A stretch of 64,000 nt of DNA, taken from Diplonema papillatum. Its lineage: Eukaryota > Euglenozoa > Diplonemea > Diplonemida > Diplonemidae. The notes beneath the pieces were generated by a model. The model saw only the letters and a list, made by a program, of their open reading frames with translations, did not search any database and had not been told where the DNA came from. The position numbers and the translations under genes are program-made. Numbering within the stretch: position 1 is the stretch's first letter; the number at the start of each line of letters is the position of its first letter. The DNA is taken from NCBI GenBank assembly GCA_030068145.1, contig JAPJBO010000003.1:436501-500500 (forward strand). The letters are read 5' to 3'. Shown here in pieces: positions 2,124 through 64,000 of the stretch.

Positions 2124-2125
<2 letters not shown>

Positions 2126-39995: not shown

Positions 39996-40335
39996 CCGCC
40001 AGGACAACACCCTTGTGAGCTGGTGGCAGGGAAAGGCCGAGGCGAGCCATCCAGTGCATCAGCACAAGAAACGCAAGGTCGCTTGCACATTGGCCCCTTG
40101 CCAAGATGAACATCACAGGTGGTCAGAAAGTACTGGAGGTGTTGGCAAGGCCAGTGTCTTTACCTCGCCCGAAATGGGTCCAAAGGCCGCGTGCAGCGCG
40201 AACCACAACCGCAGTTGGGCTTGCGCGCAGAAAACGGGAGCTCGGCTCAAGAAAACGTCAGCGTTGTGCACCATCATTATAACAATAAAAAGTGACACCC
40301 TCTACTCCATACAACTTCTATCAAACTTCTATATT

Positions 40336-41053: not shown

Positions 41054-44000
41054 ATGACACGTACAGCTCGCTTGATCCTCCCCCTTCTGGCCTTGCTATT
41101 TCACCCAAGCCACGGATTCTCCCTGGCTCGCGATGATTCGGGTGCCAACCATTTCCCTCGCCATTCCACAAACCATCCTCTAGATGCCCCGCATTCTGCC
41201 TCGCAGCATGCAGGTTCTCACCCTATTCAAAACACTTCTTCTCCAATCGGCCTACCCACGTCCTTTCAGGCAAAAAGATACTCACTTGCACAGGCTGACG
41301 AGGATACTCTTTCTCCGGATACATCTCTGCCTTCGGCAGCACCTGATACCGCTGCGCCACCTTCCGCTGCACCCAATACGTCTGCCCCTACAGTTGCGCC
41401 GACAACAGCTGAGACGTCAGCCCCTGATACGGTTGCGCCGACTACAGCTCCTGAGACGTCAGCACCTGAGACGATAGCGCCATCATCTGCACCCGAGACG
41501 TCTTCATCTGACACTGGTGTACCGTCAGGAGCCCCAGACACGGGAGTACCATCAACATCACCTGCTACTACGATCCCTTCGGCAGCACCTGATACGGGTG
41601 CACCGTCAGCATCACCTGCCACTGAAGCACCACGTACAGCTGCACCTGATACGGCTGCGCCGACTACTGCTCCTGAGACGTCAGCACCTGATACGGATGC
41701 ACCGACTGCAGCTCCTGAGACTTCAGCCCCTGAGACGAGTCCGCCATCATCTGCACCCGCGACGTCTTCACCTGACACTGCAGCACCGTCAGGTGCACCT
41801 AGTACTGCAGCACCCGAAACGTCTGCACCAGACACTGGTGTACCGTCAGGAGCCCCAGACACGGGAGCACCATCCACATCACCTGCTACTGCAATCCCGT
41901 CGGCAGCCCCTGATACGGCTGCGCCGACTACAGCTCCTGAGACGTCAGCCCCTGATACGGATGCACCGACTGCAGCTCCTGAGACGTCAGCACCTGAGAC
42001 GAGTGCGCCATCATCTGCACCCGCGACGTCTTCACCTGACACTGCAGCACCGTCAGGTGCACCTAGTACTGCAGCACCCGAAACGTCTGCACCAGACACT
42101 GGTGTACCGTCAGGAGCCCCAGACACGGGAGCACCATCAACATCACCTGCTACTGCGATCCCGTCGGCAGCACCTGATACGGGTGCACCGTCAGCATCAC
42201 CTGCCACTGAAGCACCACGTACAGCTGCACCTGATACGGCTGCGCCGACTACAGCTCCTGAGACGAGTCTGCCATCATCTGCACCCGCGACGTCTTCACC
42301 TGACACTGCAGCACCGTCAGGTGCACCCGAAACGTCTGCACCAGACACTGGTGTACCGTCAGGAGCCCCAGACACGGGGGCTCCATCCACGTCCCCTGCT
42401 ACTGCGATCCCGTCGGCAGCACCTGATACGGGTGCACCGTCAGCATCACCTGCCACTGAAGCACCACGTACAGCTGTACCTGATACGGCTGCGCCGACTA
42501 CAGCTCCTGAGACGTCAGCACCTGAGACGAGTGCGCCATCATCTGCACCCGCGACGTCTTCACCTGACACTGCAGCACCGTCAGGTGCACCTAGTACTGC
42601 AGCACCCGAAACGTCTGCACCAGACACTGGTGTACCGTCAGGAGCCCCAGACACGGGAGCACCATCAACATCACCTGCTACTGCGATGCCGTCGGCAGCC
42701 CCTGAAACGGGTGCACCGTCAGCATCACCTGCCACTGAACCACCACGTACAGCTGCACCTGATACGGCTGCGCCGACTACTGCTCCTGAGACGTCAGCCC
42801 CTGATACGGATGCACCGACTGCAGCTCCTGAGACTTCAGCACCTGAGACGAGTCCGCCATCATCTGCACCCGCGACGTCTTCACCTGACACTGCAGCACC
42901 GTCAGGTGCACCTAGTACTGCAGCACCCGAAACGTCTGCACCAGACACTGGTGTACCGTCAGGAGCCCCAGACACGGGAGCACCATCAACATCACCTGCT
43001 ACTGCGATGCCGTCGGCAGCACCTGATACGGGTGCACCGTCAGCATCACCTGCCACTGAACCACCACGTACAGCTGCACCTGATACGGCTGCGCCGACTA
43101 CAGCTCCTGAGACGTCAGCACCTGAGACGAGTGCGCCATCATCTGCACCCGCGACGTCTTCACCTGACACTGCAGCACCGTCAGGTGCACCTAGTACTGC
43201 AGCACCCGAAACGTCTGCACCAGACACTGGTGTACCGTCAGGAGCCCCAGACACGGGAGCACCATCAACATCACCTGCTACTGCGATGCCGTCGGCAGCC
43301 CCTGAAACGGGTGCACCGTCAGCATCACCTGCCACTGAACCACCACGTACAGCTGCACCTGATACGGCTGCGCCGACTACTGCTCCTGAGACGTCAGCCC
43401 CTGATACGGATGCACCGACTGCAGCTCCTGAGACTTCAGCACCTGAGACGAGTCCGCCATCATCTGCACCCGCGACGTCTTCACCTGACACTGCAGCACC
43501 GTCAGGTGCACCTAGTACTGCAGCACCCGAAACGTCTGCACCAGACACTGGTGTACCGTCGGGAGCCCCAGACACGGGAGCACCATCAACATCACCTGCT
43601 ACAGCGATGCCGTCGGCAGCACCTGATACGGGTGCACCGTCAGCATCACCTGCCACTGAAGCACCACGTACAGCTGCACCTGATACGGCTGCGCCGACTA
43701 CAGCTCCTGAGACGTCAGCACCTGAGACGAGTGCGCCATCATCTGCACCCGCGACGTCTTCACCTGACACTGCAGCACCGTCAGGTGCACCTAGTACTGC
43801 AGCACCCGAAACGTCTGCACCAGACACTCGTGTACCGTCAGGAGCCCCAGACACGGGAGCACCATCAGCATCACCTGCTACTGCGATGCCGTCGGCAGCA
43901 CCTGATACGGGTGCACCGTCAGCATCACCTGCCACTGAAGCACCACGTACAGCTGTACCTGATACGGCTGCGCCGACTACAGCTCCTGAGACGTCAACAC

Positions 44001-47000
44001 CTGAGACGAGTCCGCCATCATCTGCACCCGCGACGTCTTCACCTGACACTGCAGCACCGTCAGGTGCACCCGAAACGTCTGCACCAGACACTGGTGTACC
44101 GTCAGGAGCCCCAGACACGGGGGCTCCATCCACGTCACCTGCTACTGCGATCCCATCGGCAGCACCTGATACGGGTGCACCGTCAGCATCACCTGCCACT
44201 GAAGCACCACGTACAGCTGTACCTGATACGGCTGCGCCGACTACAGCTCCTGAGACGTCAGCACCTGAGACGAGTGCGCCATCATCTGCACCCGCGACGT
44301 CTTCACCTGACACTGCAGCACCGTCAGGTGCACCTAGTACTGCAGCACCCGAAACGTCTGCACCAGACACTGGTGAACCGTCGGGAGCCCCAGACACGGG
44401 AGTACCATCAACATCACCTGCTACTGCGATCCCGTCGGCAGCACCTGATACGGGTGCACCGTCAGCATCACCTGCCACTGAAGCACCACGTACAGCTGTA
44501 CCAGATACGGCTGCGCCGACTACAGCTCCTGAGACGTCAGCACCTGAGACGAGTGCGCCATCATCTGCACCCGCGACGTCTTCACCTGACACTGCAGCAC
44601 CGTCAGGTGCACCTAGTACTGCAGCACCCGAAACGTCTGCACCAGACACTGGTGTACCGTCGGGAGCCCCAGACACGGGAGCACCATCAACATCACCTGC
44701 TACTGCGATGCCGTCGGCAGCACCTGATACGGGTGCACCGTCAGCATCACCTGCCACTGAAGCACCACGTACAGCTGCACCTGATACGGCTGCGCCGACT
44801 ACAGCTCCTGAGACGTCAGCACCTGAGACGAGTGCGCCATCATCTGCACCCGCGACGTCTTCACCTGACACTGCAGCACCGTCAGGTGCACCTAGTACTG
44901 CAGCACCCGAAACGTCTGCACCAGACACTGGTGTACCGTCAGGAGCCCCAGACACGGGAGCACCATCAACATCACCTGCTACTGCGATGCCGTCGGCAGC
45001 ACCTGATACGGGTGCACCGTCAGCATCACCTGCCACTGAAGCACCACGTACAGCTGTACCTGATACGGCTGCGCCGACTACAGCTCCTGAGACGTCAACA
45101 CCTGAGACGAGTCCGCCATCATCTGCACCCGCGACGTCTTCACCTGACACTGCAGCACCGTCAGGTGCACCCGAAACGTCTGCACCAGACACTGGTGTAC
45201 CGTCAGGAGCCCCAGACACGGGGGCTCCATCCACGTCACCTGCTACTGCGATCCCATCGGCAGCACCTGATACGGGTGCACCGTCAGCATCACCTGCCAC
45301 TGAAGCACCACGTACAGCTGTACCTGATACGGCTGCGCCGACTACAGCTCCTGAGACGTCAGCACCTGAGACGAGTGCGCCATCATCTGCACCCGCGACG
45401 TCTTCACCTGACACTGCAGCACCGTCAGGTGCACCTAGTACTGCAGCACCCGAAACGTCTGCACCAGACACTGGTGAACCGTCGGGAGCCCCAGACACGG
45501 GAGTACCATCAACATCACCTGCTACTGCGATCCCGTCGGCAGCACCTGATACGGGTGCACCGTCAGCATCACCTGCCACTGAAGCACCACGTACAGCTGT
45601 ACCAGATACGGCTGCGCCGACTACAGCTCCTGAGACGTCAGCACCTGAGACGAGTGCGCCATCATCTGCACCCGCGACGTCTTCACCTGACACTGCAGCA
45701 CCGTCAGGTGCACCTAGTACTGCAGCACCCGAAACGTCTGCACCAGACACTGGTGTACCGTCAGGAGCCCCAGACACGGGAGCACCATCAACATCACCTG
45801 CTACTGCGATGCCGTCGGCAGCCCCTGAAACGGGTGCACCGTCAGCATCACCTGCCACTGAACCACCACGTACAGCTGCACCTGATACGGCTGCGCCGAC
45901 TACTGCTCCTGAGACGTCAGCCCCTGATACGGATGCACCGACTGCAGCTCCTGAGACTCCAGCACCTGAGACGAGTCCGCCATCATCTGCACCCGCGACG
46001 TCTTCACCTGACACTGCAGCACCGTCAGGTGCACCTAGTACTGCAGCACCCGAAACGTCTGCACCAGACACTGGTGTACCGTCGGGAGCCCCAGACACGG
46101 GAGCACCATCAACATCACCTGCTACAGCGATGCCGTCGGCAGCACCTGATACGGGTGCACCGTCAGCATCACCTGCCACTGAAGCACCACGTACAGCTGC
46201 ACCTGATACGGCTGCGCCGACTACAGCTCCTGAGACGTCAGCACCTGAGACGAGTGCGCCATCATCTGCACCCGCGACGTCTTCACCTGACACTGCAGCA
46301 CCGTCAGGTGCACCTAGTACTGCAGCACCCGAAACGTCTGCACCAGACACTGGTGTACCGTCAGGAGCCCCAGACACGGGAGCACCATCAACATCACCTG
46401 CTACTGCGATGCCGTCGGCAGCACCTGATACGGGTGCACCGTCAGCATCACCTGCCACTGAAGCACCACGTACAGCTGTACCTGATACGGCTGCGCCGAC
46501 TACAGCTCCTGAGACGTCAACACCTGAGACGAGTCCGCCATCATCTGCACCCGCGACGTCTTCACCTGACACTGCAGCACCGTCAGGTGCACCCGAAACG
46601 TCTGCACCAGACACTGGTGTACCGTCAGGAGCCCCAGACACGGGGGCTCCATCCACGTCACCTGCTACTGCGATCCCATCGGCAGCACCTGATACGGGTG
46701 CACCGTCAGCATCACCTGCCACTGAAGCACCACGTACAGCTGTACCTGATACGGCTGCGCCGACTACAGCTCCTGAGACGTCAGCACCTGAGACGAGTGC
46801 GCCATCATCTGCACCCGCGACGTCTTCACCTGACACTGCAGCACCGTCAGGTGCACCTAGTACTGCAGCACCCGAAACGTCTGCACCAGACACTGGTGAA
46901 CCGTCGGGAGCCCCAGACACGGGAGTACCATCAACATCACCTGCTACTGCGATCCCGTCGGCAGCACCTGATACGGGTGCACCGTCAGCATCACCTGCCA

Positions 47001-50000
47001 CTGAAGCACCACGTACAGCTGTACCTGATACGGCTGCGCCGACTACAGCTCCTGAGACGTCAGCACCTGAGACGAGTGCGCCATCATCTGCACCCGCGAC
47101 GTCTTCACCTGACACTGCAGCACCGTCAGGTGCACCTAGTACTGCAGCACCCGAAACGTCTGCACCAGACACTGGTGTACCGTCGGGAGCCCCAGACACG
47201 GGAGCACCATCAACATCACCTGCTACTGCGATGCCGTCGGCAGCACCTGATACGGGTGCACCGTCAGCATCACCTGCCACTGAAGCACCACGTACAGCTG
47301 CACCTGATACGGCTGCGCCGACTACTGCTCCTGAGACGTCAGCCCCTGATACGGATGCACCGACTGCAGCTCCTGAGACTTCAGCACCTGAGACGAGTGC
47401 GCCATCATCTGCACCCGCGACGTCTTCACCTGACACTGCAGCACCGTCAGGTGCACCTAGTACTGCAGCACCCGAAACGTCTGCACCAGACACTGGTGTA
47501 CCGTCGGGAGCCCCAGACACGGGAGCACCATCAACATCACCTGCTACTGCGATGCCGTCGGCAGCACCTGATACGGGTGCACCGTCAGCATCACCTGCCA
47601 CTGAAGCACCACGTACAGCTGTACCTGATACGGCTGCGCCGACTACAGCTCCTGAGACGTCAGCACCTGAGACGAGTCCGCCATCATCTGCACCCGCGAC
47701 GTCTTCACCTGACACTGCAGCACCGTCAGGTGCACCCGAAACGTCTGCACCAGACACTGGTGTACCGTCAGGAGCCCCAGACACGGGGGCTCCATCCACG
47801 TCACCTGCTACTGCGATCCCGTCGGCAGCACCTGATACGGGTGCACCGTCAGCATCACCTGCCACTGAAGCACCACGTACAGCTGTACCTGATACGGCTG
47901 CGCCGACTACAGCTCCTGAGACGTCAGCACCTGAGACGAGTGCGCCATCATCTGCACCCGCGACGTCTTCACCTGACACTGCAGCACCGTCAGGTGCACC
48001 TAGTACTGCAGCACCCGAAACGTCTGCACCAGACACTGGTGAACCGTCGGGAGCCCCAGACACGGGAGTACCATCAACATCACCTGCTACTGCGATCCCG
48101 TCGGCAGCACCTGATACGGGTGCACCGTCAGCATCACCTGCCACTGAAGCACCACGTACAGCTGTACCTGATACGGCTGCGCCGACTACAGCTCCTGAGA
48201 CGTCAGCACCTGAGACGAGTGCGCCATCATCTGCACCCGCGACGTCTTCACCTGACACTGCAGCACCGTCAGGTGCACCTAGTACTGCAGCACCCGAAAC
48301 GTCTGCACCAGACACTGGTGAACCGTCGGGAGCCCCAGACACGGGAGTACCATCAACATCACCTGCTACTGCGATCCCGTCGGCAGCACCTGATACGGGT
48401 GCACCGTCAGCATCACCTGCCACTGAAGCACCACGTACAGCTGTACCTGATACGGCTGCGCCGACTACAGCTCCTGAGACGTCAGCACCTGAGACGAGTG
48501 CGCCATCATCTGCACCCGCGACGTCTTCACCTGACACTGCAGCACCGTCAGGTGCACCTAGTACTGCAGCACCCGAAACGTCTGCACCAGACACTGGTGT
48601 ACCGTCGGGAGCCCCAGACACGGGAGCACCATCAACATCACCTGCTACTGCGATCCCGTCGGCAGCACCTGATACGGGTGCACCGTCAGCATCACCTGCC
48701 ACTGAAGCACCACGTACAGCTGCACCTGATACGGCTGCGCCGACTACAGCTCCTGAGACGTCAGCACCTGAGACGAGTGCGCCATCATCTGCACCCGCGA
48801 CGTCTTCACCTGACACTGCAGCACCGTCAGGTGCACCTAGTACTGCAGCACCCGAAACGTCTGCACCAGACACTGGTGAACCGTCGGGAGCCCCAGACAC
48901 GGGAGTACCATCAACATCGCCTGCTACTGCGATCCCGTCGGCAGCACCTGATACGGGTGCACCGTCAGCATCACCTGCCACTGAAGCACCACGTACAGCT
49001 GCACCTGATACGGCTGCGCCGCCTACTGCTCCTGAGACGTCAGCCCCTGAGACTGCAGCACCGTCAGGTGTACCTAGTACTCCAGCACCCGAAACGTCTG
49101 CACCAGACACTGGTGAACCGTCGGGAGCCCCAGACACGGGAGTACCATCAACATCACCTGCTACTGCGATGCCGTCGGCAGCACCTGATACGGGTGCACC
49201 GTCAGCATCACCTGCCACTGAACCACCACGTACAGCTGCACCTGATACGGCTGCGCCGACTACAGCTCCTGAGACGTCAGCACCTGAGACGAGTGCGCCA
49301 TCATCTGCACCCGCGACGTCTTCACCTGACACTGCAGCACCGTCAGGTGCACCTAGTACTGCAGCACCCGAAACGTCTGCACCAGACACTGGTGTACCGT
49401 CAGGAGCCCCAGACACGGGAGCACCATCAACATCACCTGCTACTGCGATCCCGTCGGCAGCACCTGATACGGGTGCACCGTCAGCATCACCTGCCACTGA
49501 AGCACCACGTACAGCTGTACCTGATACGGCTGCGCCGACTACAGCTCCTGAGACGTCAGCACCTGAGACGAGTGCGCCATCATCTGCACCCGCGACGTCT
49601 TCACCTGACACTGCAGCACCGTCAGGTGCACCTAGTACTGCAGCACCCGAAACGTCTGCACCAGACACTGGTGAACCGTCGGGAGCCCCAGACACGGGAG
49701 TACCATCAACATCACCTGCTACTGCGATCCCGTCGGCAGCACCTGATACGGGTGCACCGTCAGCATCACCTGCCACTGAAGCACCACGTACAGCTGTACC
49801 TGATACGGCTGCGCCGACTACAGCTCCTGAGACGTCAGCACCTGAGACGAGTGCGCCATCATCTGCACCCGCGACGTCTTCACCTGACACTGCAGCACCG
49901 TCAGGTGCACCTAGTACTGCAGCACCCGAAACGTCTGCACCAGACACTGGTGAACCGTCGGGAGCCCCAGACACGGGAGTACCATCAACATCACCTGCTA

Positions 50001-53000
50001 CTGCGATCCCGTCGGCAGCACCTGATACGGGTGCACCGTCAGCATCACCTGCCACTGAAGCACCACGTACAGCTGTACCTGATACGGCTGCGCCGACTAC
50101 AGCTCCTGAGACGTCAGCACCTGAGACGAGTGCGCCATCATCTGCACCCGCGACGTCTTCACCTGACACTGCAGCACCGTCAGGTGCACCTAGTACTGCA
50201 GCACCCGAAACGTCTGCACCAGACACTGGTGTACCGTCAGGAGCCCCAGACACGGGAGCACCATCAACATCACCTGCTACTGCGATGCCGTCGGCAGCAC
50301 CTGATACGGGTGCACCGTCAGCATCACCTGCCACTGAAGCACCACGTACAGCTGCACCTGATACGGCTGCGCCGACTACAGCTCCTGAGACGTCAGCACC
50401 TGAGACGAGTGCGCCATCATCTGCACCCGCGACGTCTTCACCTGACACTGCAGCACCGTCAGGTGCACCTAGTACTGCAGCACCCGAAACGTCTGCACCA
50501 GACACTGGTGAACCGTCGGGAGCCCCAGACACGGGAGTACCATCAACATCACCTGCTACTGCGATCCCGTCGGCAGCACCTGATACGGGTGCACCGTCAG
50601 CATCACCTGCCACTGAAGCACCACGTACAGCTGTACCTGATACGGCTGCGCCGACTACAGCTCCTGAGACGTCAGCACCTGAGACGAGTGCGCCATCATC
50701 TGCACCCGCGACGTCTTCACCTGACACTGCAGCACCGTCAGGTGCACCTAGTACTGCAGCACCCGAAACGTCTGCACCAGACACTGGTGAACCGTCGGGA
50801 GCCCCAGACACGGGAGTACCATCAACATCACCTGCTACTGCGATCCCGTCGGCAGCACCTGATACGGGTGCACCGTCAGCATCACCTGCCACTGAAGCAC
50901 CACGTACAGCTGTACCTGATACGGCTGCGCCGACTACAGCTCCTGAGACGTCAGCACCTGAGACGAGTGCGCCATCATCTGCACCCGCGACGTCTTCACC
51001 TGACACTGCAGCACCGTCAGGTGCACCTAGTACTGCAGCACCCGAAACGTCTGCACCAGACACTGGTGTACCGTCAGGAGCCCCAGACACGGGAGCACCA
51101 TCAACATCACCTGCTACTGCGATCCCGTCGGCAGCACCTGATACGGGTGCACCGTCAGCATCACCTGCCACTGAAGCACCACGTACAGCTGCACCTGATA
51201 CGGCTGCGCCGACTACAGCTCCTGAGACGTCAGCACCTGAGACGAGTGCGCCATCATCTGCACCCGCGACGTCTTCACCTGACACTGCAGCACCGTCAGG
51301 TGCACCTAGTACTGCAGCACCCGAAACGTCTGCACCAGACACTGGTGAACCGTCGGGAGCCCCAGACACGGGAGTACCATCAACATCACCTGCTACTGCG
51401 ATCCCGTCGGCAGCACCTGATACGGGTGCACCGTCAGCATCACCTGCCACTGAAGCACCACGTACAGCTGTACCTGATACGGCTGCGCCGACTACAGCTC
51501 CTGAGACGTCAGCACCTGAGACGAGTGCGCCATCATCTGCACCCGCGACGTCTTCACCTGACACTGCAGCACCGTCAGGTGCACCTAGTACTGCAGCACC
51601 CGAAACGTCTGCACCAGACACTGGTGAACCGTCGGGAGCCCCAGACACGGGAGTACCATCAACATCACCTGCTACTGCGATCCCGTCGGCAGCACCTGAT
51701 ACGGGTGCACCGTCAGCATCACCTGCCACTGAAGCACCACGTACAGCTGTACCTGATACGGCTGCGCCGACTACAGCTCCTGAGACGTCAGCACCTGAGA
51801 CGAGTGCGCCATCATCTGCACCCGCGACGTCTTCACCTGACACTGCAGCACCGTCAGGTGCACCTAGTACTGCAGCACCCGAAACGTCTGCACCAGACAC
51901 TGGTGAACCGTCGGGAGCCCCAGACACGGGAGCACCATCAACATCACCTGCTACTGCGATCCCGTCGGCAGCACCTGATACGGGTGCACCGTCAGCATCA
52001 CCTGCCACTGAAGCACCACGTACAGCTGTACCTGATACGGCTGCGCCGACTACAGCTCCTGAGACGTCAGCACCTGAGACGAGTGCGCCATCATCTGCAC
52101 CCGCGACGTCTTCACCTGACACTGCAGCACCGTCAGGTGCACCTAGTACTGCAGCACCCGAAACGTCTGCACCAGACACTGGTGAACCGTCGGGAGCCCC
52201 AGACACGGGAGTACCATCAACATCACCTGCTACTGCGATCCCGTCGGCAGCACCTGATACGGGTGCACCGTCAGCATCACCTGCCACTGAAGCACCACGT
52301 ACAGCTGTACCTGATACGGCTGCGCCGACTACAGCTCCTGAGACGTCAGCACCTGAGACGAGTGCGCCATCATCTGCACCCGCGACGTCTTCACCTGACA
52401 CTGCAGCACCGTCAGGTGCACCCGAAACGTCTGCACCAGACACTGGTGTACCGTCAGGAGCCCCAGACACGGGGGCTCCATCCACGTCACCTGCTACTGC
52501 GATCCCGTCGGCAGCACCTGATACGGGTGCACCGTCAGCATCACCTGCCACTGAAGCACCACGTACAGCTGTACCTGATACGGCTGCGCCGACTACAGCT
52601 CCTGAGACGTCAGCACCTGAGACGAGTGCGCCATCATCTGCACCCGCGACGTCTTCACCTGACACTGCAGCACCGTCAGGTGCACCTAGTACTGCAGCAC
52701 CCGAAACGTCTGCACCAGACACTGGTGAACCGTCGGGAGCCCCAGACACGGGAGCACCATCAACATCACCTGCTACTGCGATCCCGTCGGCAGCACCTGA
52801 TACGGGTGCACCGTCAGCATCACCTGCCACTGAAGCACCACGTACAGCTGCACCTGATACGGCTGCGCCGACTACAGCTCCTGAGACGTCAGCCCCTGAT
52901 ACGGATGCACCGACTACAGCTACTGAGACATCAGCACCTGAGACGAGTGCGCCATCATCTGCACCCGCGACGTCTTCACCTGACACTGCAGCACCGTCAG

Positions 53001-56000
53001 GTGCACCTAGTACTGCAGCACCCGAAACGTCTGCACCAGACACTGGTGAACCGTCGGGAGCCCCAGACACGGGAGTACCATCAACATCACCTGCTACTGC
53101 GATGCCGTCGGCAGCACCTGATACGGGTGCACCGTCAGCATCACCTGCCACTGAAGCACCACGTACAGCTGTACCTGATACGGCTGCGCCGACTACAGCT
53201 CCTGAGACGTCAGCACCTGAGACGAGTGCGCCATCATCTGCACCCGCGACGTCTTCACCTGACACTGCAGCACCGTCAGGTGCACCTAGTACTGCAGCAC
53301 CCGAAACGTCTGCACCAGACACTGGTGTACCGTCGGGAGCCCCAGACACGGGAGCACCATCAACATCACCTGCTACAGCGATGCCGTCGGCAGCACCTGA
53401 TACGGGTGCACCGTCAGCATCACCTGCCACTGAAGCACCACGTACAGCTGCACCTGATACGGCTGCGCCGACTACAGCTCCTGAGACGTCAGCACCTGAG
53501 ACGAGTCCGCCATCATCTGCACCCGCGACGTCTTCACCTGACACTGCAGCACCGTCAGGTGCACCCGAAACGTCTGCACCAGACACTGGTGTACCGTCAG
53601 GAGCCCCAGACACGGGGGCTCCATCCACGTCACCTGCTACTGCGATCCCGTCGGCAGCACCTGATACGGGTGCACCGTCAGCATCACCTGCCACTGAAGC
53701 ACCACGTACAGCTGTACCTGATACGGCTGCGCCGACTACAGCTCCTGAGACGTCAGCACCTGAGACGAGTGCGCCATCATCTGCACCCGCGACGTCTTCA
53801 CCTGACACTGCAGCACCGTCAGGTGCACCTAGTACTGCAGCACCCGAAACGTCTGCACCAGACACTGGTGAACCGTCGGGAGCCCCAGACACGGGAGTAC
53901 CATCAACATCACCTGCTACTGCGATCCCGTCGGCAGCACCTGATACGGGTGCACCGTCAGCATCACCTGCCACTGAAGCACCACGTACAGCTGTACCTGA
54001 TACGGCTGCGCCGACTACAGCTCCTGAGACGTCAGCACCTGAGACGAGTGCGCCATCATCTGCACCCGCGACGTCTTCACCTGACACTGCAGCACCGTCA
54101 GGTGCACCTAGTACTGCAGCACCCGAAACGTCTGCACCAGACACTGGTGAACCGTCGGGAGCCCCAGACACGGGAGTACCATCAACATCACCTGCTACTG
54201 CGATCCCGTCGGCAGCACCTGATACGGGTGCACCGTCAGCATCACCTGCCACTGAAGCACCACGTACAGCTGCACCTGATACGGCTGCGCCGACTACAGC
54301 TCCTGAGACGTCAGCCCCTGATACGGATGCACCGACTACAGCTCCTGAGACTTCAGCACCTGAGACGAGTGCGCCATCATCTGCACCCGCGACGTCTTCA
54401 CCTGACACTGCAGCACCGTCAGGTGCACCTAGTACTGCAGCACCCGAAACGTCTGCACCAGACACTGGTGAACCGTCGGGAGCCCCAGACACGGGAGCAC
54501 CATCAACATCACCTGCTACTGCGATGCCGTCGGCAGCACCTGATACGGGTGCACCGTCAGCATCACCTGCTACTGAAGCACCACGTACAGCTGCACCTGA
54601 TACGGCTGCGCCGACTACAACTCCTGAGACGTCAGCCCCTGATACGGATGCACCGACTGCAGCTCCAGTGACGTCAGCACCTGAGACGAGTGCGCCATCA
54701 TCTGCACCCGCGACGTCTTCACCTGACACTGCAGCACCGTCAGGTGCACCTAGTACTGCAGCACCCGAAACGTCTGCACCAGTCACTGGTGTACCGTCGG
54801 GAGCACCAGACACGGGAGTACCATCAACATCACCTGCTACTGCGATCCCATCGGCAGCCCCTGATACCGGTGTGCCGTCAGCAGCACCTGAAACGTCTGC
54901 ACCAGAGACGGGTGTGCCATCGGCAGTACCTGATACCGCTGTACCGTCAGCAGTACCTGAGTCGTCAGCGCCTGATACAGGCATGCCATCGGTAGCACCT
55001 GAGACGTCAGTACCTGATACCGGTGTGCCATCAGCAGCACCTGAGACGTTAGTACCTGATACCGGTGTGCCGTCAGCTGCACCTGAGACGTCAGTACCTG
55101 ATACGGGTGTGCCATCGGGAGCACCTGAAACGTCAGTACCTGATACCGGTGTGCCGTCAGCAGCACCTGAGACGTCAGTACCTTATACCGGTGTGCCATC
55201 AGTAGCACCTGAGACGTCTGTACCAGAGACGGGTGTGCCATCAGCAGCACCTGAGACGTCTGTACCAGAGACGGGTGTGCCATCGGCAGCACCTGAGACG
55301 TCAGTACCTGATACCGGTGTGCCGTCAGCAGCGCCGGAGACGTCAGGACCTGATACCGGTGTGCCGTCAGCAGCACCTGAGACGTCAGTACCTGATACGG
55401 GTGTGCCATCGGGAGCACCTGAGACGTCAGTACCTGATACCGGTGTGCCGTCAGCAGCACCTGAGACGTCAGTACCTGATACCGGTGTGCCGTCAGTAGC
55501 ACCTGAGACGTCTGTACCAGAGACGGGTGTGCCATCGGCAGCACCTGAGACGTCAGTACCTGATACCGGTGTGCCGTCAGCAGCACCTGAGACGTCAGTA
55601 CCTGATACCGGTGTGCCGTCAGCAGCACCTGAGACGTCAGTACCTGATACGGGTGTGCCATCGGGAGCACCTGAGACGTCAGTACCTGATACCGGTGTGC
55701 CGTCAGCAGCACCTGAGACGTCAGTACCTGATACCGGTGTGCCGTCAGCAGCACCTGAGACGTCAGTACCTGATACCGGTGTGCCATCAGCAGCACCTGA
55801 GACGTCTGCACCAGAAACAGGTGTGCCATCGGCAGCACCTGAGACGTTAGTACCTGATACCGGTGTGCCATCGGCAGCACCTGATACCGTTGTGCCATCA
55901 GCAGCACCTGAGACGTCTGTACCAGAGACGGGTGTGCCATCGTCAGCACCTGAGACGTCAGTACCTGATACCGGTGTGCCATCGGCAGCACCTGAGACGT

Positions 56001-56362
56001 CTGTACCAGAGACGGGTGTGCCATCAGCAGCACCTGAGACGTCAGTACCTGATACCGGTGTACCGTCAGCAGCACCTGAGACGTCAGCACCTGATACAGG
56101 TGTGCCATCGGTAGCACCTGAGACGTCAGTACCTGATACCGGTGTGCCGTCAGCAGCACCTGAAACGTCTGCACCAGAGACGGGTGTGCCATCGGCAGCA
56201 CCTGAGACGGTAGTTCCGACGCCGCCGGAGACCGAGAGTCCGGAGAGCAGTGGCGAGCCAACCGTAAGCATAGAAGTGCGTTATGGGCAGCTACCGCTTG
56301 AGACCTTTCGGAAGGTAGAGACTCAAGCCGCACTGAAGGCGGCCCTGGCCTTGATTATTGGG
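41054..56362 (+). CDS. Giant mucin-like type I membrane protein, exon 1
   Basis: A single exon of 5,103 codons from ATG 41054; the frame is open from a GTG at 41021, but ATG 41054 begins a good signal peptide, MTRTARLILPLLALLFHPSH. After a short linker come about 4,470 residues of Ala/Pro/Thr/Ser/Asp repeats in 93-residue (279-bp) units with variants, then about 450 residues of 14-residue units of the VPSAAPETSVPDTG type, then a non-repetitive end containing EVRYGQLPLETF. Cys is absent from the repeats, and the high Thr, Ser and Pro content suggests heavy O-glycosylation and an extended shape. Exon 1 ends at GGG|GTATGC (56362/56363) in phase 0; unspliced, it stops at 56386. Joined to exons 2-4 it forms a secreted ectodomain anchored by one helix. 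Likely a cell-wall or surface adhesin-like protein; specific function unknown. Confidence 0.88.
41560..54870 (+). repeat. 279-bp coding repeat array of the giant gene
   Basis: The landmark GAT(C/G)CCGTCGGCAGCACC recurs every 279 bp (for example 49726, 50005 and 50284). Variant units carry an extra segment encoding APDTDAPTAAPETS or lack nine residues. Longer blocks are themselves duplicated: a rare TCAACACCTGAGACG variant occurs near 43994, 45095 and 46517, 1,101 and 1,422 bp apart. All changes keep the frame. Confidence 0.95.
54871..56210 (+). repeat. 42-bp coding repeat array of the giant gene
   Basis: About 30 units of 42 bp encoding VPSAAPETSVPDTG with small changes (VPETG, APDTG, SVAPE). 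They form a second, shorter-period domain between the 93-residue repeats and the juxtamembrane domain. Confidence 0.93.
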
Positions 56363-56955
56363 GTATGCCGACCACCGAGTTGCTGATATTGCTGTTAGAT
56401 TGAGGTGCTCGTCGGAGTGCGTCACAAGGCGTATTCGTAGATTTCCAGGATTTTGTTTCAGTAATTAGGATGCATTGGCATGCAATTGACTCAGATTCTG
56501 CTGGATAATCTTACATACTGTGATGTAGCTGCACATGCCATCTTCAGTGTTCGAACAGAGACGACCAATGTTTGATTGCTATTAACTGGTTTGATGCAAG
56601 AAACGTAATGGTCTGCCAATAGCTGAAACTGAGTTTTCCCCCTCGAGGCAAGATTGTGCCCAATTACGAAACTAAGATTCTGCCCAATTATGAAACTAAG
56701 ATTCTACCCCGCTCACAGGTCCCGAAGCGAGACGTCGTTGTCGGCCCAACAGGCGCCCAAGTGTACATGAATTCGCAGTGGGTGGTATGCAGCTTTTACT
56801 GGCAGCTAGTGCCCTCTACTTGTGCCCTCGAAAAATCTCTGCCGTGTGGATCCGGTAGCTTCCTCTGAGCGATCACCTGGACCTTGACGCAGCACTCGGT
56901 TCATCCCACGATACCCACAAGAACTTCGAACAAGTACTCTACGTCAGGTTTCAAG
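56363..56955 (+). other. Intron 1, first part
   Basis: Inferred intron sequence (intron 1 spans 56363-60269). It holds a 25-bp duplication (CCCAATTACGAAACTAAGAT at 56660 and a copy at 56685) and otherwise nothing recognisable. Confidence 0.55.
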
Positions 56956-57062
56956 TAAAGTGGCGTCGAATAATAGCAGTCATTAGGCACGCGTCTGGCT
57001 GTCAAGAAATGAACTACCACCATTTGGCCCTGCTACTGTTCGGCTGCCCAGAACATTTCTTG
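56956..57062 (+). mobile_element. MITE family 1, copy 4 (3'-truncated)
   Basis: Begins AAGTGGCGTCGAATAATAGC after TA and follows the family to about 57062, where homology to the right end is lost. The rest of 57063-57460 is unassigned, apart from a hairpin at 57284-57338. Confidence 0.75.
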
Positions 57063-57460
57063 TGTACGCTGGACACAACTGTTTTCGAGACCGGGAGGCT
57101 GCACTCGTTGCATCGAAGAGTTTGCAAAGGTCGCGTCGATGCAGTCAACCTTGGGCTTTACATCGTCTGGTACGATGAAGAGGTGCGAGGCGTCCCCGCG
57201 TCTTTCTTCGCATGGGGCTCACTGTCGCATCGTTTGAAAGAACTACACCACCAGGCTCGTTGCCAATCAAAAAACTGTCAGCTGCCCGTGAAAGTGTCTC
57301 ACTCCTCTGCGAGGTCGATTTGAGACGCTTTCACGGGTAAAAAGGGTGAGACGCATTCACGGGGGGGTACGCATAGTTGTAACTGCATACTTCGAGAATT
57401 AGGCCTTGCGTTGGTACACTTGGCCATAAAACGCCTGCAAAATGTGTCGCCAAACCGCCG

Positions 57461-57872
57461 GGACCCTAAAAGGACCCTAAAAGGACCCTAAAAGGACCCT
57501 AAAAGGACCCTAAAAGGACCCTAAAAGGACCCTAAAAGGACCCTGAAAGGACCCTAAAAGGACCCTAAAAGGACCCTAAAAGGACCCTAAAAGGACCCTA
57601 AAAGGACCCTAAAAGGACCCTAAAAGGACCCTAAAAGGACCCTAAAAGGACCCTAAAAGGACCCTAAAAGGACCCTAAAAGGACCCTAAAAGGACCCTAA
57701 AAGGACCCTAAAAGGACCCTAAAAGGACCCTAAAAGGACCCTAAAAGGACCCTAAAAGGACCCTAAAAGGACCCTAAAAGGACCCTAAAAGGACCCTAAA
57801 AGGACCCTAAAAGGACCCTAAAAGGACCCTAAAAGGACCCTAAAAAGACCCTAAAAGGACCCTAAAAGACCC
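57461..57872 (+). repeat. 11-bp minisatellite (GGACCCTAAAA), ~37 units
   Basis: Very homogeneous 11-bp units with only a few point variants (near 57543, 57845 and 57868). Each unit contains CCCTAAA, the complement of the TTTAGGG telomere motif used by plants and several protists. It is flanked on the left by repeat H. Confidence 0.95.
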
Positions 57873-59414
57873 CACATCAAAGCCTGGGCGGCGGCCGTCG
57901 GGGGGCCCTCTCTGCCGCTCCGGCTACCGCACGCATGACGGCCTGGCACCCCTCGCGTGAAAGAGCGTGAGTAGGATGATGGCTGTCATCGGGAAGGAGT
58001 CGCCGGACCCAGGGCGGGCGGAGACGCCGGGCGTGAAGGAGTTCAGGACGATCTTCGATGCCTCACCAGCTAGAGCTACGGCTCCGGCGAGAGCTCGCCG
58101 CGTCTTGAACGTCGTTATTTACAAAAGTGGTGCCGTGCGGTGCTCGGCGAAGCAGTAGCGTCACGCAGGTGTACTGACTACCGCCAGTGTGATCCGCTTG
58201 AAGCGGGTGGCTGGTACGCAATTCCGACTTTGCAACCGCCAACTCCACACGGCAGGGTAAGACAGGGCGGACAGCTACATCTAATGGCGTTGAGAACGTG
58301 TTCGACATGTTGTCGGGATGCGGAAGGGGAGAAGGGAGGGGAGGGTGAACCGACGCCCTGTCGCGTTTCAGTGCGGTCGTAGGGTGTGGTGGAGTTCGTG
58401 AGCGCATATGCAGTACAGTAAGGTTGCAGCGTCACACGAGTCGAGCACGTCAAGCGGATATACCGATGGCCCACCAGTTAGAGCTACAGCTCCGGCGACA
58501 TGGCGTCGGACACGCCATGTGTTGAACGTCGTTATGTACAAAAGTGCAAACCTCGGCGAAGTTGTAGCGTCACGCATGACTACTGACTACCGCCAGTGTG
58601 AGCCGCATGAAGCGGGAGGTTAGTGTGCAATTCGCGTTTTGCAACAGCCAACGTCCGCGACCACGGCGCTGCTCCGCAGATTCTGGACGAGTTTTGGCGC
58701 GGCTTAGAACCTCGAGTATGCGAGCGTCCAGGGCGCACAAGGTTCTTGACGCGTGAGGCCATAAATCTGCTTCCTCCGCTCGCGCTCCGATCTCAGAGGA
58801 GTCGGAGCGCGAGCGGCGAGGGCCCTGGTCAAGACCGCGCGGCACCCCAACGTCTACAACTTCGAAGCCATCAACACAATCGAGGTGCAGATGTGACACC
58901 CGCAAAATGGACTGCACAGTCCACCCGGTGCTGGAGCACACCGTGTGATTGTGACCTCAGAAAGCCCACAAAAAAGCCCTGAACGTGACACGCAACATAC
59001 CTTTTCTCCAACCAGTGTTTCTGACCCAGAAAAGAGAGAGACCGAGACAGGGTGATTTTCAACCCGAAAAGGCAGGAATCCTTGTGGATCTTACCACAGG
59101 CTGCGGTCAATGACCGCAATGTTGCGGTCATTAACCGCAAGGTTGCGGTCATTGACCAGTAGATGTTCGCCAAAGTCTACCTGACACGTTCCCCAGGTGT
59201 TATTATTCGTCCCAGCCCTTCAGCTTCGAGCTCAGTCCATATGAAGTTTGAGAAATGGTCGCGGAAGCGTTCTCCCCAATGCCTCGGAGGACTCGGTTGT
59301 TCGACGGAGACTAGGGGGACTCCTCCTGCGGCACAAACCACTTCTACTACTCGGTGCAAGAAACGTGCAGGGTGTAGGCTTGTACTACAAGCTCTCTGTC
59401 GACCAAAACCTTTA
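57873..59414 (+). other. GC-rich part of intron 1 with exon-like segments
   Basis: 58060-58240 and 58470-58655 are diverged direct copies ~409 bp apart. Two stretches look coding by composition: 57979-58060 and 58799-58875 (acceptor-like CTCAG before, GAG|GTGCAG after, encoding RALVKTARHPNVYNFEAINT). Neither matches a family confidently nor fits the phase of the giant gene, so a nested or overlapping gene is possible. 59101-59158 is a palindromic 21-bp triplication, and 59192-59212 is a solo MITE 1 end. Confidence 0.35.
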
Positions 59415-59640
59415 TATTTTTTGTATAAGCACCTGCTTTGTAGGAAATGCTTGAGGAGACTGCCAGTTGCGATAGATCAAAGGAGGTAAATGTGCTGTAG
59501 CCCACACGAAACACAGGTAAATCTGGGTTTAGTGGCGGGCGTAAGCGTTCAACTAAAAAGACCCACTTTGTAGTTGTATTGTTTTTCTCCCCCTCTAACC
59601 TCCTTCGAAATGAGCGGAAGGCAGTCCCTCGAGTATTTCT
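59415..59640 (+). repeat. Repeat S, copy in intron 1
   Basis: Nearly identical to 16541-16764 and 60392-60615. 59641-60269 after it, up to exon 2, has short frames only; a signal-peptide-like frame at 59927 has no other support. Confidence 0.85.
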
Positions 59641-60269
59641 GACGGACAGATGACGGCACGGCAAACCATGGCTTTGTCCTGTAGGCTACTGTGACCGAGC
59701 CCCTCGCCCCCCCCACTCCCCCACCATTCAGAGCAGTGGCTGTAAGTCTGTATCACTGTAATCGTGGAAACAGCAGCGTCAGTAGGAGGCGAATGGAACG
59801 CATGACATCCACATGAAGCCAGCAGAACCCGTGCACTAGGAGCTGGCCTCCAGGGTTTCCGCAAAAAATACCGTTTGTGTTTCCGACGATCCCGTACTCT
59901 CTAGTTATTTCTCAGTACGAACAACCTTGCGGGTTGTCCTTCAGTGTTTTGTCATCACTCCGACGCCTTTCTGGCGCAGACTCGCTGCCTGCGCATGCGC
60001 CCTCGTTTTGTGGGGCCTTGCTGCAGCGCGCGTTCCAGGCAGTGTGGGGGGGCTGGGAACGGATCTCCTGGAGCAACAGGGGGGAGGGGACACTTTCTAC
60101 TGTTTTATCAGCAGACCCATTCCTCCGCGCGAGAGCCTGGGCCCCGCGCGGCACCCCCACGCTGTTCCAGTAACAGCGATCGATCGCACCCCATTTCTTT
60201 TCAGCTGTCTCCGTGGCCTGGCCGCCGCTGTGGGTAACCCACATGCTCACACCACACGCATACACACAG

Positions 60270-60377
60270 GCGATCACTCTCGTGGCAGGAAGACGCGGCG
60301 ACGCTTTACAATCAAGCATTGCGGACAACACGGTTCGTCTGGTGGCCGGCATTCGAACGAATCAGACCGTTGAGCAG
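60270..60377 (+). CDS. Giant gene, exon 2
   Basis: Exactly 36 codons, beginning AITLVAGRRGDALQSS and ending RTNQTVEQ, bounded by CACACAG before and GTACGTG after. Both ends are phase 0, matching the exon 1 donor and exon 3 acceptor. It contributes the middle of a small alpha/beta-like domain that starts at EVRYGQLPLETF in exon 1. An N-glycosylation sequon (Asn-Gln-Thr) is present. The assignment rests on splice signals, phase and composition only. Confidence 0.7.
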
Positions 60378-60391
60378 GTACGTGTTGGAAC

Positions 60392-60615
60392 TCTTTTTGT
60401 ATAAGCACCCGCTTTGTAGGAAATACTTGGGGAGACTGCCAGTTGCGAAATCTCAAAAGGAGGTAACTGTGCTGTAGCCCACACGAAACACAGGTAAATC
60501 TGGGTTTGGTGGCGGGCGTAAGCGTTCATCAAAAAAGACCCACTTTCTAATTGTAATGTTTTCTCCCCGCTAGCCTCCGTCGAAATGAGCAGGCAGTCCC
60601 TCGAGTATTTTTCTC
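60392..60615 (+). repeat. Repeat S, copy 14 bp downstream of exon 2
   Basis: A full-length repeat S begins almost at the exon 2 donor site, so the intron's 5' end is largely made of it. Confidence 0.85.
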
Positions 60616-60679
60616 GCGTGTACCATCGGTGATCGACCCGTATGCGTATGGCGTACGCGTAAGCACTTTCATCCCGATG

Positions 60680-60965
60680 AAGAGATTACAAGGCACCATT
60701 ACCATCGTTCATAGAGCACAGGTCTTGATGCGAGGGGTTTATCCCAGCCTTCTGAACACCAGCAGTACGTTGATGCCCAGCAAACTGGGCCACCTTGCAA
60801 CCTGAGCTCTGGATCCAACTACGAGCTTTTTAACAGCAGCAGCATTACTACGCTATTGGTGCTGGAATTACCGCAGGTGCTGGCACCAGACGCACCAATT
60901 GTGTTCATTGACAGGTTTAGATATCATCCATTGCTTCTAGCGTACTAAGTACGTGTCGAGGCTAT
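60680..60965 (-). repeat. 18S rDNA-derived repeat, single copy
   Basis: The minus strand reads GTGCCAGCACCTGCGGTAAT, then AGCACCAATAGCG, then GTTAAAAAGCTCGTAGTTGG, in the same order as in 18S rRNA, followed by the ~110-bp unit shared with 32792-33236. Changes at universally conserved 530-loop bases show it is not functional. 60966-61421 is otherwise unassigned. Confidence 0.85.
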
Positions 60966-61421
60966 TTCTCTTCGCTGCCTCAGCAGTGTTGCTATTGGGC
61001 AATTTGCGTACGAAGGGAACAAGAACTACAGAGGTCAGTCGAGATGCTAAGTTGCCTTGCCCGTCGAAGAGATGTGCACCCTGCCTTCAGTTCGACGCAG
61101 CAAGCATTGCGCCGGGATGAAGACAGTGGTGTTTCTGCCTCCATCTCATAATGTATCGACTATGGCCCATCCGGCCGCTTTCTCACGCTGTTTTACGTCG
61201 TCTGCGGATGATGGGTCTTTCTGGTCTACTTTTTGGGTTTCTTGAAGAAGGGCCCAGTTCACGGGGTAGCCCGTGTGTCGGGTAGACTTCCTCATCAATG
61301 CCTGCGCTCTATGAAACGGTGGCAATGATGAATGGTGCCCTGGCAAGGGGTCTTTTCATTGGGACGAAAGCGTTTACACATACACTGTACGCCCGCACGG
61401 ACCAACCATCGATGTTTTACA

Positions 61422-61676
61422 AAAGCGCCAGCTTGAAAGGAAATGCTCGACGATGCTGCCCGACAAAGAACCGAAGGGATCCCAAGTGCTGTAACTACCG
61501 AACCACGTGTTGAACGGACGTGAGGTCATGCGGGTCTACCCCTACACGACAAAACAACAGGTCGTCTTCTTGTTGCGTTAGTGGGGAGTCATTTGCATAC
61601 AAATGAGTACCACACTAACAGGTCAAAAAATCCTGAGTGAGAAAACAACGCACGGTGGTGTAAGCGAAGAACAAAA
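61422..61676 (+). repeat. Copy of the LINE-upstream repeat with a small insertion
   Basis: Matches 1856-2060 but is interrupted by a 53-nt insert (61564-61616) between direct copies of AACAGGTC. The insert largely consists of a 41-nt imperfect palindrome, TTAGTG...CACTAA, overlapping the right direct repeat. 61677-62011 is unassigned. Confidence 0.8.
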
Positions 61677-62011
61677 TGAAAAAAAGACTGTGAACCACGC
61701 ACGAGAGGCAGCGGTCTGCGGGACATCAAACTAAGATCTTACCCGTATTATGGTCGGTGTTGCGTCTCTGTGTTTAAGATCGGCTTTGAGGCGCGCCGAC
61801 ACTACTCCTTGGACGTTGGACTCACGCTATCCCAGGCTTGCAGAGGGACAGGTATTGTTCGCGGCCATCGTCAAAAAGCATGACAAAAATGCACGGAGCA
61901 TCCGTGCCCCTGCCGGAATGGGGTTGGTCTCTCAGGGTCAGAGACCCTGCTTTCGGAGCTCATTGGCACCGGATTGGTGCGACTAACGGCCCGCAGGGGG
62001 CTCCGATGCGG

Positions 62012-62325
62012 ATTCCCTCGAATGTTTCCGACGGGCTCCCCTCCAATGGTTCCGATACGGGTTCCCTTGGATCTTTCCGATACGGATACCTCCAATGTTT
62101 CCGATACGGATTCCCTCGAAGGTTTTCGATACGGATTTCCTCGACTGTGTCCTATATGGTTTCTTCGAATGTTTCTGATACTGATTCCCTCGAATGTTTC
62201 CGATACGGATTCTTTCATTGTTTCTGATACGGAATCCCTCGAATGTTTCCGATACGGATTCCCTCGGCTGTTTCCGATATGGCTCCCCTCGACTGTTTCT
62301 GATACTGATTCCCTCGAATTTGCAC
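62012..62325 (+). repeat. ~25-bp minisatellite (GATTCCCTCGAATGTTTCCG-like)
   Basis: About 12-13 degenerate units of 24-25 bp in intron 2, ending ~80 bp before exon 3. Because the period is not a multiple of three, no single frame translates uniformly. Confidence 0.85.
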
Positions 62326-62405
62326 CCGACTCCTAGCGTTCGTAGAGGTGCACGGCGGGTTTGGCTGCATGTATGTCACACTTGCTAACTCACTCGCTCT
62401 CGCAG

Positions 62406-62566
62406 GTACGTTCGAAGGTTACATCCGCCGCGTTGGTGGCTAGAACTTCAGATGAGCTGACCAGGGCCAATATCTCGGCTGCTGGTCTTGCCGTCGAAGC
62501 CGCTGTGACTGTATTCGTACCGCCAACTCCCATTGCACCGGAAACTGACGAGGAAGACGACTCCAG
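62406..62566 (+). CDS. Giant gene, exon 3
   Basis: 161 nt between CTCTCGCAG and GTATCGG, starting in phase 0 and ending in phase 2. It encodes VRSKVTSAALVARTSDEL, then NISAAGLAVEAAVTVFVPP and an acidic Pro-rich linker ending TDEEDDS. The run with the AAGL-V-V pattern resembles the end of SEA-like juxtamembrane domains in algal surface proteins; this is pattern recognition, not a search. The acidic linker precedes the membrane helix in exon 4. Confidence 0.72.
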
Positions 62567-63883
62567 GTATCGGCACGTGACTCACTCATTCTCTCGTTCC
62601 TCTCTTTTTGCCGACACTCAGGCTCCCTGCTGATGAAAGTCCGCTGCTCTCTGGAAGAGACCAACACACACCCACACACGCAAGGGGCAGCATTGCAGAA
62701 TGCTTCGCGCCACTTCCCCGTGCGAGCGAGTCTCGGAGCAGGACTCAAAATGGTGGCGCAGGCGACTGCTGACCACGACAGGTGCTTGCACCAGGAGTTT
62801 GGAACAGCTAGTCAGGCCAAGCTCATTGCACACACACAGAGAGAGCTTGCCACATCCTCGGGTGAGATGTGCTGCCTGTGTAAAGACACTCAGCTGTTGC
62901 ACGGGGCCGAAAACCCCGTGCAGCAAAAGGGGGGGGTCGAATAATAACACTGTGTTATTATTCGATTTGTCGAATCAGTATATTTCGTTGTCATTTACCC
63001 CCCCCCCCCCCCCCCACCCCTGCATGGCAGGGGGTCCTGAGGGAGCGCAAACATTGTAGAAATCTTCGGTCAGAGTCGCACGAGGCATTTTCATTGTAAA
63101 GAATCTTTAAGATCTTCGGGGTTGGAAGTCGGGTGGGTCTCTCAGCATCTGGTACCTTGCCCAGCATTCTGTCTCTGGGCTGCTGGGGACATTTCCCAGC
63201 CGAGGCTCAGATGACCTCTGCAAACCCTTAAGTATGTCACCCCCCTTGAGTATGTCACCCCCCAGCGGACTTTTGCACAAAAGGGGGGTGACATGTTCAC
63301 GGGGGAGTATAGGTACTTAAAAAATTCCGCCGCGAACTTTAACTCAGAGCCACACTCACAGTTTCGCTGAGGGGGTTGATGCACCACGAGAGTCGATAAG
63401 AGTTTCAGGTCAGTGTGAGTTTGTACAAAGTAACATCAAGGCAGCCACAGCGCCGCGTGGGTGCGGGCTTTGATATTAATCATCATGTTTCAAACCCCCG
63501 ATTGCGCGTAAACTGGAAGCACCCAGAGGGTGTCGGTGGTACGAAGGTGCAGTTGCCCGCATCCAACCGGCAATCAGCTCGCATCGGGGAGGTGACGCTT
63601 CCCACCTGGACGAGGTGTCCTGCTGCCCCATCGACAAGAGAACTTCACGCAGCCTTCAGGTTGTGGTTGGTTCAAAGATACAGTCAAGTTTTCCCACCCT
63701 CCCTAACCCCCCGATGACCTCGCCCAAGCTCGTTCCCCCGGGTTAAGGCAGTCACTCAACATTCCCTTGCGCTAGTGATATCAGTTGCAAAGACGTGCTC
63801 TTACTTCTCGCTTTCTTCAAGGCAGTTTTCTCGTCAGACAATACGAAGAGCAGAAACTCCCACACACACACACGTCAACACAG
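62567..63883 (+). other. Intron 3 with MITE 1 end, palindrome and repeat G/C copies
   Basis: Inferred intron. 62926-62975 is a MITE 1 end, 63001-63016 a C-run, and 63228-63320 an imperfect palindrome (TTAAGTA and TGTCACCCCCC with complements). 63523-63632 is inverted repeat G and 63715-63857 inverted repeat C. An alternative exon beginning at 62622 is open for ~50 codons but lacks a matching donor phase. Confidence 0.6.
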
Positions 63884-64000
63884 CGACTTCTTCTGGAGTT
63901 GGCTGGCGGTGCTGATCATCGTCATCGGCGCGCTCGTCGTGCTGCTCATCTGCTTGCTGATATGCCTGCTCTGCTCTCGCCGCAAGGCGAAGCCGTTCGC
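63884..64000 (+). CDS. Giant gene, exon 4 (transmembrane and cytoplasmic tail, partial)
   Basis: After CAACACAG the sequence reads SDFFWSWLAV (the Ser codon shared with exon 3, AG|C), then about 22 hydrophobic residues and a Cys/Arg/Lys stop-transfer stretch, CLLCSRRKAKPF, running off the window. The phase (two bases from exon 3) fits exactly. It would anchor the giant ectodomain as a type I membrane protein with a short basic cytoplasmic tail. The gene's true 3' end is outside the window. Confidence 0.72.

Follow-up and report, generated by a model that had tools for sequence, protein, structure and literature searches.

The question raised by this locus is whether a repeat-rich, stop-free frame of more than 5,000 codons belongs to a gene for a giant surface protein and, if so, how that gene continues downstream. 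The frame lies in a 64,000-nucleotide stretch of Diplonema papillatum DNA, referred to here as the window (C3:436501-500500, C-numbers being contigs of the D. papillatum assembly). The assembly searched comprised 271 Mb in 2,910 contigs, and the published one is given as 280 Mb in 6,181 contigs (PMC10161547). The gene model was built from genomic sequence alone, and its splice sites, like the signal peptide and the membrane helix, are predictions. An original prediction had joined the frame over four exons into a mucin-like membrane protein, and this observation as a whole was confirmed, the frame, exon coordinates, phases and helix all being recovered. The locus is probably a nuclear gene whose giant product spans the membrane once (type I), carries a mucin-like ectodomain and has a role in the glycocalyx.

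Translation of exons 1 to 5 (Table 1) gave 5,737 residues up to the next stop, with zero internal stops. The claim of more than 5,000 repeat-rich residues agreed with the 5,103 stop-free codons read from the ATG at 41054 to the donor after 56362, and the claimed phases of 0, 0 and 2 at junctions 1/2, 2/3 and 3/4 were reproduced for exons 60270-60377, 62406-62566 and 63884 onwards. The gene extends beyond the window, as exon 4 ends 512 nt past its edge (C3:501012, phase 1) and is followed, after an intron 4 of 1,438 nt, by exon 5, the phase of which fits. The open frame, repeat structure, membrane helix, coding signal of exons 4-5 and part order in unspliced paralogues were read from the sequence itself.

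Exon 4 was the best-supported piece. Coding scores were based on codon usage in 14 stretches elsewhere (5,302 codons), with several paralogues and the DHHC exon of the window included and the tested gene excluded. The 210 codons of exon 4 (to 64514) scored +102.3, the score dropped below zero right after the donor, and an unguided coding scan started the exon at 63882, beside the acceptor AACACAG/C. The membrane helix expected in exon 4 was found there, its best 19 residues averaging 3.61 in hydropathy; in 106.4 strand-kb of background on that contig 0 peaks of 3.6 or above occurred, and no second hydrophobic stretch was noticed by eye in the exon 4-5 translation. No ATG was present within the exon 4 open frame (63747-64514), and therefore an upstream exon must feed this strongly coding exon. 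This requirement bears on a reading in which exon 1 makes up a whole gene by itself, ends at 56386 and encodes a secreted or glycosylphosphatidylinositol (GPI)-anchored repeat protein, with exon 4 belonging to another gene or isoform. Trypanosomatid mucins and proteophosphoglycans are secreted or GPI-anchored repeat proteins of this kind. The unspliced frame stops 8 codons past the donor, its end (...AALKAALALIIGVCRPPSC) being weakly hydrophobic at a 19-residue mean of 1.36, and intronless genes are common in D. papillatum (PMC10161547). That end includes a Lys and would probably be weak as a GPI signal, and three of the four large paralogues with the C-terminal part read end in a helix and tail (in the fourth the helix was not reached), so that with the demand of exon 4 for an upstream exon a single-exon gene is unlikely.

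The protein encoded from exon 1 starts with MTRTARLILPLLALLFHPSHGFSLA, followed by a short linker and then the repeats. Its signal peptide stands as a prediction, the start being signal-like by translation and by eye with a best 19-residue hydropathy mean of 1.51. Pro, Ala, Ser and Thr together made up 77.7% of exon 1 (Ser+Thr 32.4%, Pro 21.5%, Ala 24%), and Pro residues in the repeats were mostly 4 or 5 residues apart (391 and 672 spacings). The modelled ectodomain of 5,168 residues contained 1,668 Ser/Thr, 561 acidic and 63 basic residues and zero cysteine. How many of the almost identical 279-nt units the array holds depends on the assembly. An arabinogalactan-protein or extensin reading was set aside; the Pro-dipeptides (AP 703, SP 152) were a loose fit, and an Extensin_1 match of the paralogue C1003 was probably compositional.

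The openness of exon 1 is weak evidence alone, because the repeat spacings were divisible by 3 in 45 of 45 measured and two further frames were open for 4,397 and 4,638 codons. A non-coding tandem repeat, open by chance since its units are multiples of three, would be in keeping with three frames open for more than 4,300 codons and with the ratio of nonsynonymous to synonymous variation (pN/pS) of 1.13 in the main array (29 units, 14 distinct). Such a reading is highly improbable, given that paralogues on other contigs keep the Pro/Ala/Ser/Thr frame on into helix and tail and that the 42-nt 3' array (29 units, 19 distinct) gave an in-frame pN/pS of 0.26 versus 11.7 and 1.65 in the other plus-strand frames, albeit with 0.25 in the reverse frame, whose wobble position is the same.

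A search of the genome with the repeat unit, in which the best 150 of 1,584 candidates were scored, showed at least 12 other open frames of more than 1,300 codons matching in the repeat frame. Their lengths in codons were 3,104 (C245), 2,928 (C740), 2,850 (C709), 2,091 (a second place on C3), 2,061 (C22), 1,856 (C190), 1,745 (C340), 1,731 (C614), 1,726 (C633), 1,603 (C285), and 1,551 and 1,387 (both C162). C614 and C633, with matching hits, may be copies of one another. On C245 a 1,128-codon frame adjoins the 3,104-codon frame, and one match in that region contains a TGA. At about 5,700 residues, the model appears to be the longest so far of this group of D. papillatum repeat-rich surface proteins, among the matches listed. 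To call its uninterrupted ~15.3-kb exon exceptional was too strong, because these other frames exist and introns (mostly GT-AG) are reported in 41% of D. papillatum genes (PMC10161547), most genes being intronless.

The C-terminal DNA was read for four of the 12 listed places. C709 was complete in its one 2,850-codon frame, with a signal-like start, repeats, helix, tail and stop. Read from mid-repeat, C740 continued in a single frame through repeats, a Cys-containing module, helix, tail and stop, and C245 (1,128-codon frame) did the same with a longer juxtamembrane segment; the second C3 place ran into acidic repeats, and its helix was not reached within 3 kb. A search with the C709 anchor returned, besides itself, only weak matches (E 0.012-0.58), among which C245 and C528 fit the family, the latter (E 0.26) being a 462-codon version with signal-like start, repeats and helix. 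The same part order was present without splicing in four of the five loci read (C709, C740, C245 and C528, the second C3 place excepted), and the architecture is therefore supported independently of splicing. C709, C740 and C245 have Pro/Ala/Ser/Thr repeats, one helix and a tail in common with the giant protein; they differ from it in being shorter, in needing no splicing where read and, for C245 and C740, in having Cys-containing modules near the membrane. Two candidates of the anchor search were rejected as family members, namely C486, with a helix and a Cys-rich ectodomain without these repeats, and C283, a 218-codon frame with a helix in which no repeats were seen. The prediction of a giant type I membrane protein whose ectodomain is mucin-like is well supported, because exon 4 lacks its own ATG, the acceptor at 63884, which the coding scan favours, needs a phase-2 donor and the paralogues keep the same order unspliced; of the original interpretation, this part held, the exceptional exon was too strong a claim and the juxtamembrane domain was not confirmed.

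A phase-2 donor was absent among the ten GTs in 56201-56386, and therefore use of the acceptor at 63884 calls for an exon between that exon 1 end and exon 4 that changes the phase. Exon 3 supplies the phase-2 donor, and exon 2 is dispensable for the frame; other routes would be open through farther-upstream acceptors in the exon 4 frame or through donors deeper in the array. As predicted pieces, exons 2 and 3 are plausible without being the sole candidates. Exon 1 and the helix may accordingly form one gene by a different route, in which exon 2 is passed over, other exons are taken, or several isoforms arise, some carrying the juxtamembrane segment and some lacking it; this is possible and on balance doubtful. 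The region 56.4-63.9 kb holds 278 open candidate internal exons (102 with entry phase 0), an alternative phase-0 donor, ACC/GTAAGC, is present at 56264, exon 2 runs from phase 0 to phase 0 between 90%-identical dispersed-repeat copies, and alternative splicing is confirmed in several D. papillatum genes (PMC10161547). Speaking for the modelled exons, short of proof, are an alternating strand-helix pattern seen by eye in the joined peptide and the avoidance of dispersed repeats by the exons, exons 2 and 3 sitting between such repeats with no listed repeat overlapping either. The copies flanking exon 2 are at 59418-59638 and 60394-60610, with further copies at 16536-16761 (+) and 28442-28665 (-); recombination between them might promote the loss or gain of this exon.

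Several results weigh against the five-exon gene as modelled. The coding signal of exons 2 and 3 was modest, being equalled or exceeded in 5.4% and 3.0% of open background stretches, and neither was the top scorer by coding score (ranks in Table 1). The end of exon 1 (42 codons, juxtamembrane start) was not coding-like, with 19% of background equal or above, and codons 1-82 scored -15.2, a value neither for nor strongly against coding in so short a stretch. The main array, with the ratio given above, was without sign of purifying selection, and its reverse strand also scored as coding (+311.8 versus +474.6 forward). The intron lengths (1.3-3.9 kb) exceed the published median of less than 1 kb, and long introns of D. 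papillatum are described as often carrying transposable elements (PMC10161547). Other acceptors ahead of the helix, or other phases, may be used. Additional exons may follow exon 5, and the coding scan found no strong plus-strand coding segment in the 27 kb after it.

Table 1. Parts of the modelled gene, in window positions unless marked C3
Feature	Position	Strand	Details
Exon 1	41054..56362	+	15,309 nt, 5,103 codons, no in-frame stop; donor GGG/GTATGC, phase 0
Signal-peptide-like start MTRTARLILPLLALLFHPSHGFSL	41054..41125	+	Translation; judged by eye
Main repeat array	41409..54860 (approximate)	+	279-nt units with 264- and 321-nt variants
Older repeat array	54860..56215 (approximate)	+	42-nt (14-residue) units
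Intron 1	56363..60269	+	3,907 nt; unspliced reading stops in frame at 56384-56386; dispersed repeats within
Exon 2	60270..60377	+	36 codons, phase 0 to 0; rank 9 of 102 phase-0 candidates; optional for frame
Intron 2	60378..62405	+	2,028 nt; holds 18S rRNA piece, - strand, 60736-61036
Exon 3	62406..62566	+	53 codons + 2 nt, phase 0 to 2; rank 4 of 102 phase-0 candidates
Intron 3	62567..63883	+	1,317 nt
Exon 4, first 117 nt	63884..64000	+	Continues to C3:501012
Membrane helix WLAVLIIVIGALVVLLICLLICLLC, then SRRKAK	63900..63974 (about)	+	Hydropathy
Exon 5	C3:502451-503361	+	Phase compatible with exon 4

A small juxtamembrane domain split over exons 1-3 had also been proposed. The phases do join these pieces, and a domain was not confirmed in PDB, Pfam or paralogue alignments. 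The joined segment had PDB matches only at E of at least 0.57, none of them SEA, and no meaningful Pfam match; a SEA domain had no Pfam match up to E 10, and likewise none was found in C245. Alignments of the segment with C245, C709 and C486 were not significant (6.2%, 23.6% and 97.2% of 1,000 shuffles equal or better), and the search of the genome for its relatives returned only the gene itself (9 candidates scored). Exon 5 looks internal, because coding-like codon use covers the 35 codons before its first ATG (0.1% of background equal or above). Its relatives in the genome were itself, a partial copy just upstream and one very weak match there. The partial copy, of the exon 5 start, lies inside intron 4 (L009 1671-1844 = C3:502071-502244; 83% identity over 58 residues) and was likened to the repeat-bounded genes described in D. 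papillatum (PMC10161547). A ubiquitin-like fold suspected by eye in the last ~90 residues of exon 5 (L009 2050-2961) was rejected, with no PDB or Pfam support.

For the glycosylation of such a protein, the GT60 family (PF11397) was matched 12 times, on six contigs with C339 and C159 among them (best E 5.9e-86), and was found in 0 of 14 control genomes. Four GT60 frames were read, of which L064 and L067 start with hydrophobic leaders and L065 and L066 have none in the exon seen. In Trypanosoma cruzi the Golgi GT60 enzyme TcOGNT1 is reported to make the GlcNAc-alpha-O-Thr links of mucins (PMC9472816). A GT60 gene alone is no proof of mucin glycosylation, because Trypanosoma brucei is reported to have one with no known mucins (PMC9472816). 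The matches place the family in the genome, and it may act on the giant protein.

A mechanism may be proposed on this basis. The mRNA would receive a spliced leader, as is reported for essentially all mRNAs of the expert-validated D. papillatum set (PMC10161547), and exons 1-2-3-4-5 would be joined. The signal peptide would direct the chain into the secretory pathway, where GT60-type polypeptide alpha-GlcNAc-transferases would initiate O-glycans on Thr/Ser of the repeats. The Pro-rich, glycosylated, acidic, cysteine-free chain of ~5,170 residues would be held extended and stand off the surface as a brush. The rise of an extended chain is 0.2-0.36 nm per residue, and the brush would be ~1-1.9 micrometres long; the cell is given as more than 10.5 micrometres long (PMC10161547). 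The helix would anchor the chain, leaving a cytoplasmic tail of ~510 residues inside if exon 5 is the last. A long brush or adhesin is a reasonable inference, and it would be acidic and probably glycosylated, serving in the glycocalyx for protection and adhesion, with a possible part in attachment or the handling of prey. As D. papillatum has been suggested to be predatory (PMC10161547), contact with prey or substrate is a fair guess for the role of the protein.

Other features were recorded in the window and genome. A retrotransposon at 2049-9359 (+) has a 436-codon frame followed by a 1,999-codon frame matching endonuclease, reverse transcriptase and RNase H-like sequences, and a DHHC palmitoyltransferase exon is present at 31403-32740 (+; E 4.2e-28), the strand that also carries the giant gene. 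Near-perfect tandem arrays lie at 39246-40000 (12-bp unit x 63) and 21401-23077 (72-bp unit x 23), and intron 1 contains at 57460-57866 ~40 copies of the 10-base unit AAAAGGACCC, telomere-like in look by eye. Besides the piece in intron 2, 18S-like/28S-like rRNA pieces were seen at 32792-33236 and 36843-37015 (+), and they fit the about 3,600 scattered 28S pieces described for the genome (PMC10161547). A spliced-leader query (a 22-base piece of the diplonemid exon, at most 1 mismatch) had 342 + 303 genome matches, and the control, the query read backwards, had 0 + 0. The light-harvesting family PF00504 had 0 matches, and a brown alga was rejected as the source of the DNA in favour of Diplonema. 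The number of spliced-leader RNA genes is given as 110 (PMC10161547), fewer than these 645 matches.

No description of a diplonemid mucin-like surface protein was found in the open-access papers searched, and PMC10161547 does not use the word "mucin" in its main text. Quite possibly the public assembly already carries an annotation of this gene. Mucin-like surface coats are a known feature of kinetoplastid parasites, diplonemids are their sister group, and D. papillatum is a free-living marine flagellate. As a tentative wider view, held with much less confidence than the gene itself, diplonemids might be coated by giant mucin-like transmembrane proteins of a family so far undescribed, bearing the same GT60 O-glycosylation as trypanosome mucins; mucin coats in Euglenozoa might then predate parasitism, and this member, with its long cytoplasmic tail, might be a micrometre-scale surface sensor or adhesin. 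If the protein is confirmed, D. papillatum, in which gene replacement has been achieved (PMC10161547), would be suited to studying the function of giant surface mucins in a non-parasite and to testing whether GT60 O-glycosylation is ancestral in Euglenozoa.

Among known surface proteins, bodonin/DGF-1 likewise has a large repetitive Ser/Thr-rich ectodomain, a membrane part and an intracellular part in a free-living euglenozoan, and is described as averaging seven membrane helices (PMC4728078), whereas the giant protein has one. Two other loci, C7 (L010) and C1003 (L012), have in separate frames a Cys-rich part, Pro/Ala/Thr repeats and what looks by eye like a membrane part with several helices; against the TRP family PF06011, C1003 scored 26.4 bits (cut-off 28.5) and C7 had no match. 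Their layout recalls bodonin, to which C1003, and by eye C7, look closer than the giant protein does, and they are possible diplonemid counterparts.

Leishmania proteophosphoglycans are phosphoglycosylated and are secreted or GPI-anchored. They likewise have long Ser/Ala/Pro-rich repeats and few or no introns, and have been named mucin-like (PMC4728078). The giant protein has repeats rich in Pro, Ala, Ser and Thr and is predicted, in the spliced model, to be anchored by a membrane helix. T. cruzi mucins are short. They are likewise Thr/Ser-rich surface proteins of Euglenozoa, GT60 is present in both genomes, and they are GPI-anchored (PMC9472816), whereas the spliced model, which ends in a long tail after its membrane helix, is probably not.

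Animal transmembrane mucins (MUC1/MUC16/MUC17) have a signal peptide, a long Pro/Ser/Thr-rich repeat ectodomain, one helix and a cytoplasmic tail, and the giant protein, given the splice model, shares all of these parts with them. It is unlike them in that no SEA domain was found, in its Ser+Thr of 32% and Ala of 24%, and in its distant lineage; GalNAc O-glycans would not be expected. The cut-off for a PTS domain is Ser+Thr of at least 40% and Pro of at least 5%, and exon 1 lies above the second and below the first. Because of the SEA result, this Ser+Thr content and the distant lineage, the protein is not classed with the animal mucins, and the best account by analogy is that it would work as they do.

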